A DNA stretch of 64,000 nt from Pilimelia terevasa (GTDB taxonomy: Bacteria; Actinomycetota; Actinomycetes; Mycobacteriales; Micromonosporaceae): NCBI RefSeq assembly GCF_014647915.1, contig NZ_BMQC01000003.1, positions 1-64,000 of the forward strand, read 5' to 3'. The position numbers were made by a program, and so were the translations under genes. The notes under the pieces are model-generated. The model was not told where the DNA came from. It did not search any database and was given only the letters and a program-made list of their open reading frames with translations. Of this stretch, positions 1 through 12,114 are shown piece by piece. The stretch's first letter is position 1. Every line of letters starts with the position of its first letter.

Positions 1-375
1 CGGAATCATGTAACGCCGCACCGGATCCGCATAAAACGCCTCCGTCGACATCACCTCAAACGGCACCATCGTATTCACCATCTGCGGCGGCACCAACATC
101 GACATCGTCGCCATCTGCGCCTGGTCGTCAGCCAGATCACTGTAGAAACGCTCGTCGACCAGATCCCCCAGCACCGCCCGCAACTGCGCCACGTTCTTCA
201 CGCAGTTCACCCGCTGCCACTGCGCCGACTCCCACTGCTCCCGGGTGACATCCCGCCAACCCGGGAAACGCGTCCAGTCCGGCTCCACCAGCGGGCGGCG
301 GCGGTACTCGTAGGGCTGGCCCAGGGCGGGGGCGTCGATGGACGCGCCCGCGGCAGGCTCTGCGGTGATGGTCAT
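1..375 (-). CDS. kamA: Lysine 2,3-aminomutase, N-terminal part (cut by window edge)
   Basis: The first 125 residues read from an ATG at 375 and run off the left edge without a stop. The segment with DWTRFPGWRDVT, QRVNCVKN and TMSMLVPPQM matches the N-terminal region typical of actinobacterial KamA-family radical-SAM aminomutases, which convert L-lysine to L-beta-lysine using [4Fe-4S], S-adenosylmethionine and pyridoxal phosphate. The radical-SAM cysteine motif and PLP lysine would lie outside the window and cannot be checked. A GGGGG stretch sits about 8 bases before the ATG. The gene starts 76 bp after the stop of the NRPS upstream on the same strand, so the two probably form an operon and this enzyme probably supplies beta-lysine to it. 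A sibling aminomutase (glutamate or arginine) is possible but less likely from the sequence. Confidence 0.85.
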   Translation of the reverse strand, partial: MTITAEPAAGASIDAPALGQPYEYRRRPLVEPDWTRFPGWRDVTREQWESAQWQRVNCVKNVAQLRAVLGDLVDERFYSDLADDQAQMATMSMLVPPQMVNTMVPFEVMSTEAFYADPVRRYMIP

Positions 376-451
376 CGTGCGTACCCCCACATGTTGCGGA
401 TGTGTTGGAAAGGTCGCCGGCCGCGCGGGTCGCGGACGGGGTGGAACAGAA

Positions 452-3400
452 TCAACGCCGGCCGGCGCCCGCGAGGGCGCGCAGGACCACGGTGTCGTCG
501 GTGCTGCGCTGAGCGGGCAGTTCCCGCCGGGGCGGCGCCGTGACGACGGGGACCGTCGCCGCGGGCGCGGTCGCCCGCTCGCACGGGATGCCGTGCCAGG
601 CGGTGTACTCCGGGAGGGTCTCGCCCTTCATCAGCAGCGAGAGCGGGCCGAGCGAGGCCCCGCGGGAGAGCACCGAGTCGTACAGGACGATGGCCATGTT
701 CCCGACCGACGTCTCCGCCTCCACCCGCATACTGCTGGACTTGAACACCCGGTCCTCGAACAGGTGGTTCTGCAGGACGCTGCCGTAGTTGAGCGCGGCG
801 TAGTCGCCGATCTCCACCAGGTCCCACTCGGAGAACAGGGTGGTCGCCAGATAGACGCGCCTGCCGAGCTTCACGCCCATCAGGCGGAAGAACGGCGCGG
901 CGAACGGCGTGCCGAGGAAGACGGAGACCGACGGGGAGAAGACCGACTCGTAGATGCCGTTGATCATCTCGTTCAGCCAGACGTACACCGACCACAGTGG
1001 CTTCACGACCGGCTTGAAGGTACCCATGATGGCCTTCTTCATGAAGGCCACGAACAGCATCGCCGCGACGGCGAAGCCCATCGCCACCACCGGCGCGACC
1101 AGGGTGACCTTGAGGACGCCGCCGGTGGACAGCGCCCACCACAGGCAGTAGAGGTAGGGCACCAGCGCGGCGAGCGCCGCGTAGTACGGGATCAGCACGC
1201 GCAGGCCGTCGATGATCGCCCGCTGCAGGTACAGCCCCAGCGACGGCTGGAAGATGACGGCCGCGTCGAACGACTCGACCTTGACCCGGTGGGTCAGCGT
1301 GAACGCCTCCGAGCCCAGGCCCTCCCAGCCGTCCGGCGTGGTGTCCATGCCCGAGGGGGGCAGGGACTGCACGCCCAGCAGGCCGTTGTCGCCCATGCTC
1401 TTGCCCATCGGCAGAATGGCGCTGTTGCCGACGAAGCTGCGGGCGCCGATCCGGTTCCAGTCGACCTGGAACACGCCGTGGTGCACCCGCTTGCCGCCGA
1501 TGATCGCGCCGTCGGCGAAGAAGCTCTCCGGGCCGATCTCGGTCAGCTCCGGCTGCATACTCCAGATCGTCGAGATCTCCGCCCGGCGGGCGATCTTCGC
1601 GCCGAACATCCGCAGGAACGGCGGCAGGTACAGCGTCGTGTAGACCGGGAGGAACGCCTGCTTCACCCGCTTCATCAGCAGGTCCGACATCCACTTGCGG
1701 ACGTAGGTGACGCTCTCGGTCGGGTACTCCCCCGGCTCGATCCGGTGCAGGATGACCCACTTGAGCACGGCGGAGAAGGCGGCCGTGAACACCAGGACGA
1801 CCGGTACCGCGACCGCGAGGATCGCCACCGACGTGGAGATGCCCAGGTGCAGCAGCATCCACCGGAACAGGAACATCAGCCCCAGGAACATGCCGGCGCC
1901 GAGCCAGAAGAAGAAGTCCACGGCGGCCACGTGCAGCCAGCCGAAGAAGAACCGGCGGGCGGTGGAGGCGTGCACCGTGCGGCTGGGCAGCTCGACCCGC
2001 GCCGGGATGGCCGGCGAGCCGCGGCGCTGCTCGCCGTCGGCCATGACGTGGCCGTCGGGCAGCAGCGACTGGTCGTCCAGCGCGCAGTCGTCGCCCATGA
2101 CGGTGTCCAGGCCCAGGGCGGAGTGCTGGCCGACGAAGCAGCGGTCGCCGATGTCGATCCGCCCGATCTTGAGCAGGCCGTCCTCGACCCGCCAGCCCAT
2201 GAGCTGGGTGTCCGCGCCGATGCTGGTGTCGTCGCCGATCTCCAGCAGGTCCCACGCCCCCACCTGGCCGGTGAGCAGGTGGCAGCGCTTGCCCACCCGG
2301 GCGCCCATCAGGCGGTAGTACAGCGGCATGACCGGCGTGCCGACCAGCGACTCGGCCCCGCTCATCGCGGTGAACCGGGCGGCCAGCCAGAACCGGAAGT
2401 AGTAGAAGCTCCACAGCTTGTGCTCGCCGGGCTTGTACCGCCCGATGAGCACCCACTTGGCGCCGATCGCCAGCAGGATGACGATCGGCCAGGCGCCGAG
2501 CGCGAGCAGGCCGACGATGATCACGTACCAGAGCGTCGCCACCTCGCCGAGGACCCAGAAGACGGTGAGGAAGAACAGGACGGCCGGCAGCAGCGCGAAG
2601 ATCGCGCCGAAGAGGTACATCGACAGCGCCTGGAGCGTCCAGGTCGTCCAGCGGCTCAGCTTCGACTGGCTCTCGTACACCTCCCGGGCCGTCGGGCCGG
2701 TGGGCCCGGCCGGGACGCCGCCGCCGGCCGACGGGGGGCCGAAGGTCTCCAGGTACGCGGCGAGCGCCCGGACCGAGGGGAACTTGTACATGTCGCGCAC
2801 GGTCACCATGTGCCCGACGCTGTCGCGCAGCGCCGTCGCGGCCCTGGCGGCGACGAGCGAGTGGCCGCCCAGGTCGACGAAGAAGTCGGCGGTCACCGAC
2901 ACCGCCGGCGCGCCGAGCACGTCGGCGTACACCCGGGCGAGCGCCACCTCCATGTCGGTGGCCGGCGGTTCGACGTCGCCGAGCGCCCGGGTGAGCGGGC
3001 TGGCCGGCGGCGGCAGCAGCTTGCGGTCCACCTTGCCGCTGGTGGTGCGCGGCATCTCCGGCATGACGTCGAGGAAGTTCGGCAGCATGTACGGCATGAG
3101 GCGGTCCTGGGCGAGCCGCAGGACGCCGTCGCGGTCGAGGTGCGCGGCGGGCGCGTCGGTGACGACGTACGCCGCGATCTCCTGGATGCCCTCGATCTCC
3201 ACGACCTTCACGGCCGCGGCCTTGATCTGCGGCCACTCGGTGAGCACGGACTCGATCTCGCCCAGCTCGACCCGGTTGCCGCGGATCTTGACCTGGCCGT
3301 CGATCCGGCCGAAGAACTCGTACTCCCCGTCGTCGTTGACCCGCACCAGGTCGCCGGTGCGGTAGATCCGGCAGGGGTCGTCGCCGTCCATGCTCACGAA

Positions 3401-4504
3401 GGTCTTCGCGGTCAGGTCGGGCTGGCGCACGTACCCGCGGGCCAGCGTCTCGGACCGGATCACCAGCTCGCCGGACTCGCCGCGGGCCACCGGGCGCAGC
3501 TCCTCGTCGACGACCTCCAGGTGGTACCCGCGCAGCGGCCGGCCGATGTTGATCGGCTGGCCGGCGCGGCAGCGGAAGGCGGTGGTGTTGACGGTCGCCT
3601 CGGTGGGGCCGTAGACGTTCCACAGCGCCAGGCCGGGGCGGTCCCAGCGGGCGACCAGGTCCGGCGGGCAGACCTCGCCGGAGAGCACGACGGTGGTCAG
3701 GCTGGGCACCGGCACGCCGAGCGTGGCCAGCACCGTCGGCACGGTGGAGAAGTAGTTGACCTCCAGCTCCGCCAGGTGCCGGGCCAGGTCGTCGCCGAAC
3801 TTGGGCGCGCCCAGCTCGGGCACCACGAGGGTGGAGCCGTTGGAGAACGCCATCCAGATCTCCTCGATGCTGCCGTCGAAGCAGAGCGAGAATCCCTGGT
3901 ACACCCGGTCGGTCGGCGCGGTCGCGCAGACCTCGTTGAAGGCGTGGACGAAGCGGGTCACGTTCCGGTGCTCGGTCATGATGCCCTTGGGCCGACCGGT
4001 GGTGCCGGAGGTGTAGATCACGTAGGCGAGGTCGAACGGGGAGACGTGGCCCAGCGACGGCTCTGGCTCGGCCGGGGCGGGCGCCTCCAGGGCGACGCAC
4101 GGCGAGTGGACCCCGATGACCTCGACCCGGATGTGCGGGTAGGCGTCGGCGGTGCGCGGGGCCAGGTCCTCGTCGGTGAGGCAGAGGACGACGCCCAGCT
4201 CGTCGCTGATGTGGCGGATCCGCTCGGTCGGGTAGCCGGGGTCGATCGGCACGTAGACGACGCCGGCCTTGTGGCAGGCGAGGATCGCGGCGACGGCGAG
4301 GTCGGAGCGGTGCAGGAACAGGGCGACGTACTCGCCGCGGCGGGCGCCGAGCGACTTGATGTGCCGGGCGAGCCGGTTGGCGGCGGCGTCCAGCTGAGCG
4401 TAGGTGGTCTCCCGGGGGCCGCAGGTCACCGCGATCGCGTCCGGCGACTTGCGTGCAGTGGCCTCGAAGAGCTCGTGCAGGCACAGCTCCGCTGCCGACT
4501 CCAT
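452..4504 (-). CDS. Pls/PosA-type NRPS: adenylation, carrier and three-part membrane synthetase
   Basis: This 1350-residue protein has the architecture of epsilon-poly-L-lysine synthetase (Pls), a membrane enzyme that activates one amino acid and polymerises it without a normal condensation or thioesterase domain. Adenylation domain at about 1-500: TSGTTGRPKG at 165-174, YGPTEAT near 298, YRTGD near 381, catalytic Lys491 in SGKVDRK. Carrier domain at about 515-590 with the pantetheine serine in LGGHSL (Ser549). After this come three pairs of membrane helices (about 622-688, 853-917, 1088-1158), each followed by a soluble domain rich in hexapeptide-like repeats (IGDDTSIGADT, IGARSFVGN, IGDYAALNYG). 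Threading by eye gives the specificity code D-G-E-S-V-S-V-V-N-K. The Glu at the third position resembles lysine-activating domains. The ATG at 4504 is preceded by AGAAAGGA. kamA lies directly downstream and a two-component system diverges upstream. Product inferred: a (beta-)lysine oligomer or polymer. Confidence 0.9.
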   Translation of the reverse strand: MESAAELCLHELFEATARKSPDAIAVTCGPRETTYAQLDAAANRLARHIKSLGARRGEYVALFLHRSDLAVAAILACHKAGVVYVPIDPGYPTERIRHISDELGVVLCLTDEDLAPRTADAYPHIRVEVIGVHSPCVALEAPAPAEPEPSLGHVSPFDLAYVIYTSGTTGRPKGIMTEHRNVTRFVHAFNEVCATAPTDRVYQGFSLCFDGSIEEIWMAFSNGSTLVVPELGAPKFGDDLARHLAELEVNYFSTVPTVLATLGVPVPSLTTVVLSGEVCPPDLVARWDRPGLALWNVYGPTEATVNTTAFRCRAGQPINIGRPLRGYHLEVVDEELRPVARGESGELVIRSETLARGYVRQPDLTAKTFVSMDGDDPCRIYRTGDLVRVNDDGEYEFFGRIDGQVKIRGNRVELGEIESVLTEWPQIKAAAVKVVEIEGIQEIAAYVVTDAPAAHLDRDGVLRLAQDRLMPYMLPNFLDVMPEMPRTTSGKVDRKLLPPPASPLTRALGDVEPPATDMEVALARVYADVLGAPAVSVTADFFVDLGGHSLVAARAATALRDSVGHMVTVRDMYKFPSVRALAAYLETFGPPSAGGGVPAGPTGPTAREVYESQSKLSRWTTWTLQALSMYLFGAIFALLPAVLFFLTVFWVLGEVATLWYVIIVGLLALGAWPIVILLAIGAKWVLIGRYKPGEHKLWSFYYFRFWLAARFTAMSGAESLVGTPVMPLYYRLMGARVGKRCHLLTGQVGAWDLLEIGDDTSIGADTQLMGWRVEDGLLKIGRIDIGDRCFVGQHSALGLDTVMGDDCALDDQSLLPDGHVMADGEQRRGSPAIPARVELPSRTVHASTARRFFFGWLHVAAVDFFFWLGAGMFLGLMFLFRWMLLHLGISTSVAILAVAVPVVLVFTAAFSAVLKWVILHRIEPGEYPTESVTYVRKWMSDLLMKRVKQAFLPVYTTLYLPPFLRMFGAKIARRAEISTIWSMQPELTEIGPESFFADGAIIGGKRVHHGVFQVDWNRIGARSFVGNSAILPMGKSMGDNGLLGVQSLPPSGMDTTPDGWEGLGSEAFTLTHRVKVESFDAAVIFQPSLGLYLQRAIIDGLRVLIPYYAALAALVPYLYCLWWALSTGGVLKVTLVAPVVAMGFAVAAMLFVAFMKKAIMGTFKPVVKPLWSVYVWLNEMINGIYESVFSPSVSVFLGTPFAAPFFRLMGVKLGRRVYLATTLFSEWDLVEIGDYAALNYGSVLQNHLFEDRVFKSSSMRVEAETSVGNMAIVLYDSVLSRGASLGPLSLLMKGETLPEYTAWHGIPCERATAPAATVPVVTAPPRRELPAQRSTDDTVVLRALAGAGRR

Positions 4505-5138
4505 GGCGGTCCTTTCTCCAGCTCTGGCACAGGGCACTCGCACCGCGGGTGGGCGGACGAGCAGTGGGGTGAGTCCACAGGCGAGCGAAAGAACCCGCTA
4601 TGCCGGAATTGTGTGGGCATTCCGGCCGCCGGCGCCGTGCGCCCGGGGTGTTCGCTCGCGTTCGCCGTGTTTACGCGATCATCACCGGCGGACCGACGTG
4701 CGCGCTTGACCGACCACAAAGACGGAACGACTATGGCCGCGATCGCGGTACGCCGCAACTCGACGGGACCCACACTCAGGACGGTTGATCGGCACGATCG
4801 TCACGGGAACACCCATCTCTCGGCTTGGCTTGTGCCGAACTAGGCGGCTACGTGCGGTTCCTCCCCCATGACCCGGGCACGCTCGGCTATCGAACCGATG
4901 AACGCTGAGGAAAAGCTCGAAGCAACCTCGGAGCAAGCTCGGAGCCGTGCTTCTGTCCGGTATGTACGGTAAGAAACTACGACCATCAATACATTCTGTG
5001 ATCACTGTCTCACAGGGGATCACGGGCTTGAAGATCGGTTCGTTCACGGAATGATGCAATGAGTGCCGTCGATTGACCGCTCGGCTACCGTTAGGCTGCC
5101 AACGACAGATATTCGCAGGACTCGCTACAGGAATTTGG
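4505..5138. promoter_or_regulatory. 634-bp divergent intergenic region between the NRPS and the two-component system
   Basis: No convincing gene lies here: reading frames across it lack ribosome-binding sites and recognisable products. The right half (about 4900-5130) is clearly more AT-rich than the surroundings, as expected for promoters. The region must hold the minus-strand promoter of the NRPS-kamA unit and the plus-strand promoter of the response regulator. The only distinct element I can name is the dyad at 4996-5023, listed separately. Confidence 0.55.
4996..5023. promoter_or_regulatory. Candidate operator dyad upstream of the response regulator
   Basis: CTGTGA at 4996-5001 is mirrored exactly by TCACAG at 5010-5015. 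Within it GTGATCAC at 4998-5005 is itself a palindrome, and GGATCAC recurs at 5017-5023. The element lies about 115 bp upstream of the regulator start. It could bind this regulator (autoregulation) or another factor. That is inference from symmetry only. Confidence 0.35.
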
Positions 5139-5909
5139 ATGCAGTCTGAAACCAACTGGGTGGCGGGAAACACCATTAGTCCGACGGCGCTCGACCATAC
5201 GGTCACATCCGCGCGGGTCGAGCGGGTACTCGTCGTGGACGACGAACCGAACATCTGCGCGCTGCTCGCCGCGACGCTGCGCCTGGTGGAGTTCGACGTC
5301 CGCGTCGCCAACACCGGCACCGACGCGCTCGCCGTGGTCGAGGAGTTCGACCCGGACCTCGTGGTGCTGGACGTCATGCTCCCCGACCTGGACGGGTTCG
5401 CCGTCGCGCAGCGGCTGCGCGCCCAGGGGCGCCACGTGCCGATCGTCTTCCTCACCGCGCGCGACGCGGTCTCCGACCGCATCTCCGGCCTGACCGCCGG
5501 GGCCGACGACTACGTGACCAAGCCGTTCAGCCTGGAGGAGGTCGTGCTGCGGATCCGCGCGATCCTGCGCCGCAGCCGCCCCGAGGCCGACACCCCGCCG
5601 CCGACGCTCACCTTCGCCGACCTGGAGCTGGACGACGACGCCCACGAGGTCCGCCGCGGCGGCCGGCAGATCGACCTGTCGCCGACCGAGTTCAAGCTGC
5701 TCCGGTACCTGCTGCTCAACGCCGGCCGGGTGGTCAGCAAGGCGCAGATCCTGGACCGGGTGTGGGACTACGACTTCGACGGCGACGGCCGGATCGTCGA
5801 GTCGTACGTCTACTACCTGCGCCGCAAGATCGACCGGGACGGGCCGGCGCTGATCCACACCGTCCGCGGGGTCGGCTACACGCTGCGCCTGCCCCGCGAA
5901 GACACCTGA
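5139..5909 (+). CDS. OmpR/PhoB-family response regulator
   Basis: This 256-residue regulator has a receiver domain from about residue 28 with the acidic pair in VVDDEP (Asp34, Asp35), phospho-acceptor Asp78 in LVVLDVMLPD and the conserved Lys128 in VTKPF. A winged-helix DNA-binding domain follows from about 150 (LSPTEFKLLRYLL; HTVRGVGYTLR). The start at 5139 is chosen because CAGGAA precedes it at a good distance and because the receiver starts about 28 residues later. The histidine kinase begins three bases after the stop, so the two are cotranscribed. It resembles MprA/TrcR-like regulators; its signal cannot be told from sequence. Divergence from the NRPS-kamA unit makes control of that unit plausible. 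Confidence 0.93.
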   Translation: MQSETNWVAGNTISPTALDHTVTSARVERVLVVDDEPNICALLAATLRLVEFDVRVANTGTDALAVVEEFDPDLVVLDVMLPDLDGFAVAQRLRAQGRHVPIVFLTARDAVSDRISGLTAGADDYVTKPFSLEEVVLRIRAILRRSRPEADTPPPTLTFADLELDDDAHEVRRGGRQIDLSPTEFKLLRYLLLNAGRVVSKAQILDRVWDYDFDGDGRIVESYVYYLRRKIDRDGPALIHTVRGVGYTLRLPREDT

Positions 5910-5912
5910 GCC

Positions 5913-7505
5913 GTGGACGACGCCGACGAGCCCACGCTCGACCTGCGTCCCCGGCCGCCCCGCCGCCGCTGGCCGCGCCCGTGGCGGCAGTGGACCCTGC
6001 GCTCGCGGCTCGTCCTGGTCGCCGCGGCGATGGCGGCGCTGGCCCTGGTCGTCGCCGACACCGCCGGGCTGGTCCTGCTCCGTAGCTACCTCACTGCCAA
6101 GATCGACCGGCAGCTCATCGGGCTCGGCCGGCCGTACACCCGCGGCGCCGACCTGGACACCGGCACGACCGCCAACGGCGGGCACCGCCGCGTCGCCAAG
6201 CGCCTCGGCCCCGACCAGGCGCTGATCGTCTTCGGTCCGGACGGCAACCGGCAGAACCGGCACGGCTGGATCACCGGCGCCTCGCAGCCGCGGCTGGAGC
6301 CGTTCGAGGCGCTGCTCGCCCGCGCGCGCACCCGCCAGCCGTACACCGTGCCGGCCACCGACGGCCAGACCGAGTGGCGGCTGCTCGCCGTCCCCGTCGG
6401 CAACACCGGCGGGCTGGTCCTGGTCGGGGTGGCGCTGGACGAGGTCGAGCAGACCAGCGAGCGCCTGCTGTTCATCGACATCGGCGTCACGGTGACCGTC
6501 CTGCTGGTGCTCGGCCTGCTGGGCCGCACCGTCGTCCGGCTCGGCCTGCTGCCGCTGACCCGGATGGGCGAGACCGCCGCCGCGATCACCCACGGGGGCC
6601 TGTCCCGGCGGCTCGACGACGACCCGCACACCGAGACCGGGCAGCTCGGCGTCGCGCTGAACACGATGCTCGCCCGCATCGAGTCCGAGGTCGCCGCCCG
6701 GCGCGCCTCGGAGGAGCGGCTGCGCCGGTTCGTCGCCGACGCCTCGCACGAACTGCGCACGCCGCTGACCTCGATCCGGGGCTTCGCCGAGCTGTACCGC
6801 CGCGGCGGCGCCCCGCCAGGCCCGGTCCTGGACGACACGATGTCCCGGATCGAGCAGGAGGCGACCCGGATGGCGGTGCTGGCCGAGGAGATGCTGCTGC
6901 TGGCCCGCCTCGACCAACGCCGGGCTCTCCAGCGGCGCCCCGTCGACCTGCTCCAGGTGGCGGCCGACACGATCCGCGACGCGCACGCCCGGGTACCCGA
7001 GCGGACCGTCCGGCTGGCCGCGCTGCACGACGACGCGACCGGCCTGGAGCCGGTGACGATCGCCGGGGACGAGCCGGGCCTGCGCCAGGTCGCGGCGAAC
7101 CTCGTGGCCAACGCGCTCCAGCACACCGCCGCCCCGGCGACGGTGACGGTCCGCATCGGCCGGCAGCACCGCCCGGGCGACCACGGGCGGGCGGCCGCCG
7201 TCGGGGCCGACCGGGTCACCGGGCCGTGCGCCGTCCTGGAGGTGACCGACACCGGCGCGGGGGTGCCCGACGCGCACGCCGACCGGGTGTTCGAGCGGTT
7301 CTACCGCGGGGACTCCAGCCGCAGCCGAACGTCCCAGGCCGGGGGTACCGGGCTGGGACTGGCGATCGTGGCGGCGATCGTGACCGCGCACGGCGGGCGG
7401 GTCGAGCTGCACCGCCCGGCCGCCGGGGGCGCCACGTTCCGGGTCCTGCTGCCGGCGGACCAGCCCGCCCCGCCCCCGGCCCGGACCCCCGAGGTCGCCC
7501 GCTGA
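5913..7505 (+). CDS. Membrane sensor histidine kinase
   Basis: The 530-residue kinase starts at a GTG 3 bp after the response regulator stop. One membrane helix lies at about 33-57, an extracytoplasmic sensor loop of about 125 residues follows, a second helix lies at about 186-208, then a HAMP linker, the phospho-acceptor His279 in SHELRTPL, and an ATPase domain with N-box (NLVANALQH), G1 box (DTGAGVPD) and G2 box (GTGLGLAI). All residues needed for autophosphorylation are visible. The sensor loop has no recognised domain, so the ligand is unknown. It is the obvious partner of the adjacent regulator. Membrane stress from a cationic peptide is a possible signal, but only by context. Confidence 0.93.
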
Positions 7506-10251: not shown

Positions 10252-12114
10252 ATGTCGCCGATCCGTCCACTGTTCGCGGCCTGCTGCGCCGCGGCGCTGC
10301 TGGCCCCGGCGCTGCCGGCGCCGGCCGCGCCGCCGGGCGCCGGGCGCGCCGCCGCGCCCGCAGCCGCCGGCACCGAGCCGGTGTACGACTACGCCGAGGC
10401 CATCCGCGAGCAGCTCACCGTGGAGGTACCGGCCGACAGCGACGCCGACGGCACCCCGGACCGGGTGGCGGTGCGGGTGATCCGGCCGCGGACCGCCCCG
10501 GGCGTCCGGGTGCCGGTCATCTTCCAGCCGAGCCCGTACTACTCCGGCACGCTGGACGTCCCGATGCACGACGACATCGACCGCGCCGACGACGCCCTCG
10601 CCCCGCCGACCGCCCGCCGCGACCCGGCGCTGACCTTCGCCGACTACCTGGACAACTACTTCGTCCCGCGCGGGTACGCCGTCGTGTTCGCCGACAGCCT
10701 CGGCTCGGGCGGCTCCACCGGCTGCCCGACCAGCGGCGGCCGCAACGAGACGCAGGGTATGCGGGCGGTCGTCGACTGGCTCAACGGCCGGGCCCGCGGC
10801 GCCGACGCCGCCGGGGCGCCGGTGACCGCGGCCTGGAGCACCGGCCGCACCGGCATGATCGGCACCTCGTACAACGGCACCCTGCCCAACGCGGTGGCCG
10901 CCACCGGGGTGCCCGGCCTGGCGACCATCGTGCCGGTGGCCGCGATCTCCAACTGGTACGACTACTACCGCTCCGGCGGCGGCGTCGTGCACCCCGGCGG
11001 CTTCCTCGGCGAGGACGCCGACATCCTGGCCCGCGCGGTGCTGACCCGGCAGAACCCGGAGGTCTGCGCGCCGGTCCTGGCGGCGCTCGACAAGGCACAG
11101 GACCGGCGTACCGGGAACGTCAACACGTTCTGGCACGAGCGCAACTACGCGCGGTTCGCCGGCAACGTCAGGGCCAGCGTGCTGCTCGTGCACGGCCTGC
11201 ACGACTGGAACGTGCGGATGGGCCATGTCGGGCCGTGGTGGTCGGCGCTGGCCACGCACGGGGTGCCCCGCAAGATCTGGCTGCACCAGGGCGCGCACAG
11301 CAGCCCGTTCGACGTCCGCCGGGCGCAGTGGCTGCGCACGCTGCACCGCTGGTTCGACCAGTGGCTGTACGGCGTGGACACCGGCATCATGCGGGAGCCG
11401 ACGGCCTCGGTGGAGACCCGGCCGGGCACCTGGACCGAGGCCGCCGACTGGCCGGAGCCGGGTACGGCCACCGAGCGGATCCCGCTCGACGGCGGGCCCG
11501 CCGCCCTGCGCCTGACCCCGGGGCAGGCCGGCCGCTCCTTCACCGACGACCCCGCCAGGACCGCCGACGACCTGGTGGCCCGGGAGACCGGCGCCGACCC
11601 CGGCCGGCTCCAGTACGTGTCGGACCCGCTGCCCGCGCCCGTCCGGTACTCCGGCACCGGGAGCGTGACCGTGCGGGTCCGCGCGGCGGGGGCGTCGCCG
11701 TACCTGACCGCGCTGCTGGTGGACTACGGGCGGGCGAACCGGTTCCAGCGCACCGAGCGGCTGACCGACGAGCTGGACTGCATCGGGCCTGGCACCCCCG
11801 AGGACCCGGGCTGCTTCGCCAAGGCGCGGTACGTCCTGGCCGACACCCCGCACGAGATCGTCAGCCGCGGCTGGCTCGACCTGCGCAACCGGCACGGCCT
11901 GTGGGCCGACCGGCCGCTGCGGCCGGGCCGCTTCCACGAGGTCACGGTGCCGCTGCAGACCCAGGACCACGTGTTCCCGGCCGGCCACCGGCTGGGGCTG
12001 GTGCTGATCTCCACCGACCGCGCGCACACCCTGCGGTACCGCGCGGGCACCACCGTCGAGGTCGACGAGCGGCGCAGCGCCCTGCACCTGCCGATGCGGT
12101 TCGCCGGCCCCTGA
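10252..12114 (+). CDS. Secreted CocE/NonD-family (X-Pro dipeptidyl-peptidase-like) hydrolase
   Basis: This 620-residue protein has an N-terminal signal peptide (about 1-25, ending near PAPAAP), an alpha/beta-hydrolase domain and a C-terminal jelly-roll domain typical of PepX/CocE. The probable triad is Ser206 in GTSYNG, Asp318 in GLHDWN and His349 in HQGAHSS. The oxyanion region ADSLGSGGSTGCP and the YYSGTLD loop also fit. It should cleave acyl or prolyl bonds outside the cell; whether peptidase or esterase is not decided. The ATG follows GGGGAGGGC. An AT-rich TTATAGT at about 10194 may be its -10 element. It stands alone between a HAD gene and a DinB gene. Confidence 0.88.
   Translation: MSPIRPLFAACCAAALLAPALPAPAAPPGAGRAAAPAAAGTEPVYDYAEAIREQLTVEVPADSDADGTPDRVAVRVIRPRTAPGVRVPVIFQPSPYYSGTLDVPMHDDIDRADDALAPPTARRDPALTFADYLDNYFVPRGYAVVFADSLGSGGSTGCPTSGGRNETQGMRAVVDWLNGRARGADAAGAPVTAAWSTGRTGMIGTSYNGTLPNAVAATGVPGLATIVPVAAISNWYDYYRSGGGVVHPGGFLGEDADILARAVLTRQNPEVCAPVLAALDKAQDRRTGNVNTFWHERNYARFAGNVRASVLLVHGLHDWNVRMGHVGPWWSALATHGVPRKIWLHQGAHSSPFDVRRAQWLRTLHRWFDQWLYGVDTGIMREPTASVETRPGTWTEAADWPEPGTATERIPLDGGPAALRLTPGQAGRSFTDDPARTADDLVARETGADPGRLQYVSDPLPAPVRYSGTGSVTVRVRAAGASPYLTALLVDYGRANRFQRTERLTDELDCIGPGTPEDPGCFAKARYVLADTPHEIVSRGWLDLRNRHGLWADRPLRPGRFHEVTVPLQTQDHVFPAGHRLGLVLISTDRAHTLRYRAGTTVEVDERRSALHLPMRFAGP

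Follow-up and report, generated by a model that had tools for sequence, protein, structure and literature searches.

Known systems for the synthesis of basic poly-amino acids

The Pls enzyme that forms epsilon-poly-L-alpha-lysine is not known to need an aminomutase. The solved enzyme of this type, 7WEW, belongs to the same family as the synthetase described here and shares its A-T-membrane plan. Nevertheless, its pocket, read by eye from an alignment, is DAESIGTVV and differs from that of our synthetase, and the genome studied here carries a separate copy of the 7WEW type. A closer counterpart is the epsilon-poly-L-beta-lysine synthetase (Yamanaka 2022, ACS Chem Biol 17:171, as cited in PMC10522769). 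According to PMC10522769, what led to the polymer of Streptoalloteichus hindustanus NBRC 15115 was a Pls homolog with a lysine-2,3-aminomutase gene next to it, and the code of the synthetase is DGESISVVNK. Thus, a Pls-like enzyme for a product of beta-lysine only is on record, as mentioned in the original prediction, although from Streptoalloteichus hindustanus and not from a Streptomyces. Compared through code and gene adjacency, that system resembles ours in having a Pls-type enzyme, the pocket DGESxSVVNK and an adjoining lysine 2,3-aminomutase gene. As far as this source goes, the kind of locus and its gene pairing are already published, and the present locus is a good new example.

PosA, the delta-poly-L-ornithine synthetase of Acinetobacter baumannii, also has its family and general mechanism in common with our synthetase, but differs in its pocket, its substrate and its single-gene operon (PMC10522769, available portion). 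In the case of streptothricins, ORF19 and ORF18 handle epsilon-linked L-beta-lysine units, like those proposed here. In contrast to our synthetase, ORF19 is a stand-alone A domain that needs a primed ORF18 carrier (PMC9606270, available portion).

A complete synthetase beside a kamA-like gene

The window, which is the whole stretch of 64,000 nucleotides analysed, comes from Pilimelia terevasa (Micromonosporaceae). The following features lie at its left end:

452..4504, minus strand: pls-type synthetase gene, from open reading frame and translation, ATG at 4504 (longest reading 452-4543, GTG at 4543)
3014..4468, minus strand: adenylation domain (residues 26-510 of the protein, P0001), with AMP-binding at 26-371, AMP-binding_C at 429-504 and motifs A3-A10
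2750..2941, minus strand: thiolation (carrier) domain, residues 535-598, DLGGHSL, from Pfam PP-binding (45.3 bits)
584..2635, minus strand: terminal domain of Pls/PosA type, containing membrane helices and stretches of hexapeptide-like sequence, from the TIGR02353 match, hydropathy and hexapeptide matches below cut-off
454..469, minus strand: weak stem resembling a terminator, where the synthetase gene ends, one found against a mean of 0.1 in shuffles
1..375, minus strand: KamA-like gene, N-terminal 125 codons, start ATG at 375, truncated at the end of the contig, from alignment to a KamA-like relative

The gene at 452-4504 is a complete Pls/PosA-type synthetase. In NCBIfam, its score on TIGR02353 ('Pls/PosA family') is 539.8 bits, above the cut-off of 423.1, and the amino acid adenylation model gives 395.8 bits. 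Up to E 0.1, the Pfam matches are AMP-binding (264.6), AMP-binding_C (33.9), PP-binding and, below cut-off, two hexapeptide matches; neither a condensation nor a thioesterase domain is among them. A motif search located A3, A5, A7, A8, A10 and the T-domain serine motif, the end of the A domain at residue 510 being taken from DltA-type matches. In a hydropathy scan, three hydrophobic clusters were observed (residues 637-702, 872-933 and 1110-1176), as well as one marginal segment inside the A domain (residues 82-100). The full A-T-membrane layout that had been proposed for this NRPS is thus borne out by TIGR02353, Pfam, motifs and hydropathy alike. AlphaFold2, applied to the terminal part with six sequences, reached a mean pLDDT of 41.6, a confidence too low for use.

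The KamA-like gene is separated from the synthetase gene by 76 bases. Judged from sequence comparison, the two probably constitute a pls-kamA locus for epsilon-poly- (or oligo-) L-beta-lysine. In the proposed mechanism, the KamA-like enzyme, of the radical SAM/PLP family, would convert L-lysine into L-beta-lysine. The A domain, with its DGE...N pocket, would adenylate beta-lysine and load it onto the T domain, and the membrane-embedded terminal domain would then link the units by epsilon-amino isopeptide bonds, without a termination domain. The product, which would carry a positive charge, would presumably be secreted and may act as an antibiotic. The organism may thus be a source of an antibiotic made of isopeptide-linked beta-lysine, and its genome encodes an epsilon-poly-lysine-type and a Dab/Dap-like synthetase as well. 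Because the synthetase gene ends in this weak stem, the presumed co-transcription of pls and kamA in the window is uncertain.

The substrate pocket

3587..3877, minus strand: pocket residues 223, 224, 227, 266, 286, 288, 310, 318 and 319 (D, G, E, S, V, S, V, V and N), from an alignment read-out

The A10 lysine is present and completes the DGESVSVVN code. With the pocket positions placed by eye against GrsA numbering, nine of the ten residues are identical to the published DGESISVVNK, with a single change from the Ile of S. hindustanus to Val. The pocket thus matches the beta-lysine code and not DAESIGTVV, which is why the synthetase of the window is read as beta-lysine type; its substrate is something that we infer from the code.

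That very step leaves room for another explanation, in which the synthetase uses a different diamino acid (alpha-lysine, ornithine or Dab) and the adjoining kamA is a chance second copy. Such an explanation gains from the properties of the KamA-like genes described below, which are family-wide in distribution and divergent in sequence, with scores below cut-offs. It is opposed by the pockets themselves, as both 7WEW and the synthetase at C9:128 kb of the same genome show DAESIGTVV while that of the window matches the beta-lysine code, and by the recurrence of the kamA pairing in a second genome, G145. A different diamino acid is, in our judgment, unlikely, and beta-lysine is kept as the preferred substrate.

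Recurrence and rarity of the gene pair

The synthetase was searched against a sample of 300 Micromonosporaceae genomes, and 40 of them, its own included, were matched at E<=1e-150. The synthetase of G145 stands out with 55% identity and 1495.5 bits; the next best match has 841.3 bits, so that only two of the 300 genomes, the own genome and G145, lie above it. Pocket codes in this search were read only for rows with a locus, plus G016 from an earlier locus, and the code of G145 is identical to that of the window. In G145, L116 8588 is the last position of the kamA-like gene, and the synthetase gene is on the same strand, beginning at GTG 8585 (an overlap of 4 bases) or at ATG 8594 (5 bases apart). 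The gene order is therefore kamA-pls, as opposed to pls-kamA in the window. G145 also has a second KamA-like gene, which is unlinked and on a separate contig.

The pairing was seen here in two genomes, the own one and G145. Near Pls loci with other pocket codes, no KamA match was found (0 of 36; in 31 of these loci the flanks covered reach 1 kb or more on both sides, and in the other five they are shorter). In a class-wide sample, a single genome out of 296, the own one, was matched at E<=1e-270, which indicates that such close relatives are rare. The joint reading of the two genes as a source of a beta-lysine polymer or oligomer, put forward in the original prediction, gains support from the pocket code and from the recurrence of kamA in G145, the product itself being predicted from these genes. 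Together with the published producer, the own genome and G145 are cases of this pocket beside a kamA-like gene, and the pocket code becomes more usable as a predictor.

The KamA-like family and its presumed activity

By their model scores, the KamA-like proteins of Micromonosporaceae are a divergent, family-wide type. TIGR00238 matches 297 of the 300 sampled genomes at E<=0.001 and exceeds its cut-off in three; thus, this gene type is not specific to pls loci. For instance, on TIGR00238 (cut-off 199.2) the linked KamA of G145 reaches 158.9 and the family-wide type (L069) 170.8. On the lysine 2,3-aminomutase model TIGR03820 (cut-off 525.4), the values are 151.5 and 158.5, respectively, and both proteins thus stay below both cut-offs. 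When compared with 2A5H by eye, the linked KamA of G145 keeps the three cluster cysteines (CxxxCxxC), R134, D293 and D330, which we take to be functional residues, and the same residues are visible in the family-wide copy. This alignment of the G145 protein stops at residue 335, short of the PLP lysine.

The 125-residue piece encoded in the window, taken alone, has no match in NCBIfam, Pfam or PDB. In phmmer, it finds relatives with E down to 1.2e-63, and it is 80% identical to residues 15-130 of a 468-residue KamA-like protein from a Micromonosporaceae relative. Of the proposal that the partner of the NRPS makes beta-lysine, the adjoining KamA-like gene is confirmed, and the activity is predicted, for an enzyme whose relatives score formally below the curated cut-offs.

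A literature search for the role of the family-wide KamA-like gene found none. It is conceivable, if doubtful, that this gene is a lysine 2,3-aminomutase and that beta-lysine is made by nearly all members of the Micromonosporaceae, as would follow if gene conversion between the two kamA copies described below has kept their enzymes interchangeable. Only 2 of the 300 genomes, however, have a synthetase with more than 841 bits against that of the window. This locus therefore raises a testable question about the role of a KamA-like gene that almost all the sampled Micromonosporaceae genomes carry.

Two split kamA copies in one genome

1..127, minus strand: 127 bases shared without a mismatch with the end of contig C12, which holds part of the other kamA copy; the assembly breaks here within a repeat

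The assembly of the own genome comprises 4.54 Mb in 42 contigs, and base 1 of the window is base 1 of contig C3. Therefore, kamA is cut by the assembly and not by the choice of the window. There are two kamA copies in this genome, both split over contig ends, and TIGR00238 gives no match over the whole genome, where the copies are fragments. The 5' parts, at the ends of C3 and C12, have exactly 127 bases in common, and so do the 3' parts, at the ends of C22 and C24. In the aligned unique 5' parts, the two copies differ at 34 of 194 positions. The middle of the gene, about residues 131-422 of the 468-residue query, is absent from the assembly. The simplest reading is that a repeat was collapsed by an assembler with k=127, which implies that the two copies would be identical across the missing middle. 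New here is a second kamA copy in which 127 bases at either end of the missing segment are identical to those of the copy in conserved context. A foreign origin of the shared stretch was considered because of its low GC3 and rejected, as the difference (0.83 against 0.88 in the unique part of the window) is too small.

In the five relatives fetched, KamA always lies between an amidohydrolase and an AsnC-type regulator. This context corresponds to the contents of C12 and C22 together; consequently, the C12 copy most likely joins C22, and the window joins C24. The alternative pairing of C12 with C24 was rejected, as it would disagree with the synteny of all five relatives.

These observations bear on a further explanation, in which beta-lysine comes from either KamA copy and the linked one is made redundant by a family-wide gene whose own role is a different, general one. 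Both the identical 127-base stretches at the two ends of the missing segment and the conserved context of the C12 copy (5 of 5 relatives) are consistent with it. Nevertheless, a linked copy exists besides an unlinked one in both genomes with such a synthetase, and in G145 it directly abuts the synthetase gene, which argues for a dedicated supply of beta-lysine. Redundancy is accordingly given perhaps one chance in a few, and a kamA serving the adjoining synthetase is the reading that we follow.

Genes surrounding the locus

5148..5909, plus strand: response regulator (Response_reg, Trans_reg_C), divergent from the synthetase gene, with an unsettled true start (open reading frame listed from 5073)
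5913..7505, plus strand: sensor histidine kinase (HAMP, HisKA, HATPase_c), from a domain scan

Beyond the sensor kinase lie genes for an alcohol dehydrogenase, a metallo-beta-lactamase-fold protein, an S15 X-Pro dipeptidyl-peptidase-like enzyme, a mycothiol-S-transferase and a CHAP/FG-GAP protein. On C24, kamA is followed by a ricin-type lectin gene in convergent orientation, then by genes for an fn3 protein and a ribonucleotide reductase, and the unit thus appears to be pls-kamA alone. Of the ten neighbours covered by the scan, in the window and on C24 together, none encodes an acetyltransferase or an exporter. An acetyl-beta-lysine acetyltransferase (AblB) as the real partner of kamA, which would have spoken against a polymer, was rejected on this local scan.

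These ten genes, with no exporter or acetyltransferase among them, would also fit an inactive pair, or a pair whose output is limited to short oligomers on some other molecule, in the manner of streptothricins. On the other hand, the core motifs of the synthetase are present, and streptothricin chains are extended by the stand-alone ORF19, which lacks such a terminal domain (PMC9606270, available portion). An inactive or short-chain system is hence improbable in our view, and a functional polymer (or oligomer) synthetase is preferred.

The S15/PepX_C gene (window 10252-12114, plus strand) is 5.7 kb from the synthetase gene and on the opposite strand. It is the sole peptidase-family match among the ten neighbours, and no reason tying it to the polymer was found.

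Relatives in Bdellovibrionota

A quick tree without bootstrap was made from 43 synthetases; the partial L112 was aligned and its code read, and it was left out of the tree. The synthetases of the window and G145, a paralog on contig C2 of the own genome and five Bdellovibrionota rows are united in one set with an SH-aLRT of 99, and the DA-type, DFE[AC]-type and DFEY-type groups lie outside it. The placement of members within this set is unsure because of tool warnings about unlike composition and long branches, above all that of the C2 paralog.

The five Bdellovibrionota loci (L011-L015), all from MAGs, have exactly the pocket DGESISVVN. No KamA match lies within about 9 kb on either side of the synthetase in any of the five. 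A KamA over the TIGR00238 cut-off is located elsewhere in all five of these genomes, which were examined as synthetase carriers only; the one scored is nearest to the lysine model, at 510.3 bits, just under the cut-off of 525.4. The published pocket thus occurs also in five Bdellovibrionota MAGs, in which KamA is encoded at a different genomic site. The available portion of PMC10522769 describes a Bdellovibrionales protein with a different pocket, DSECYGGVTK. Literature on nonribosomal beta-lysine in Bdellovibrio gave nothing beyond this source, whose supplement fell outside the search; the five MAGs with the published code and no linked kamA are reported as new here, although an earlier report is possible.

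Other genes follow the synthetase in some of these loci. In L014 (12936-14745) and L015 (12967-14031), there is an HGSNAT-like acetyltransferase, and L014 also has a 4'-phosphopantetheinyl transferase. In L013 (12926-13918), a gene of the AAT family (PF03417, 6-aminopenicillanic acid acyltransferase) starts 4 bases past the synthetase gene.

Other Pls loci

The own genome has four Pls loci, one of them degenerate, which are new here; two weak TIGR02353 matches (31 and 24.8 bits) were left out of this count. The degenerate one is the C2 paralog (L043 6438-10133, about 382.9-386.6 kb of C2), with 373.8 bits on TIGR02353, below the cut-off. In the tree, a long branch joins it to the beta-lysine set. 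Its pocket is DGAAVSVVH, its A3 motif is degraded, and A8, A10 and a T domain were not found. A frameshift was rejected, since by eye these motifs are absent from all three forward frames across the gap, and the missing part is therefore read as a deletion. An ABC-2 exporter pair adjoins this paralog divergently.

The other two loci are on contig C9. In L041 (6531-12146, about 84.5-90.1 kb), a gene for a class-III aminotransferase immediately precedes, on the same strand, that of a Pls with the pocket DFEALSVVT, and the locus looks like one for a Dab/Dap-type polymer. L042 (6565-11834, about 128.1-133.3 kb) encodes an epsilon-poly-lysine-type Pls, with the pocket DAESIGTVV and 640 bits to 7WEW. 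It is followed by an open reading frame for an M1-family peptidase, with an overlap of 4 bases if its TTG start is right, which is perhaps a polymer-degrading enzyme. Finally, Pls with the pocket DFEY[LMY]GTVT were observed in L036-L039 and L097-L111 (plus the partial L112); these 19 rows, 18 of them from Micromonosporaceae, form one set in the tree.
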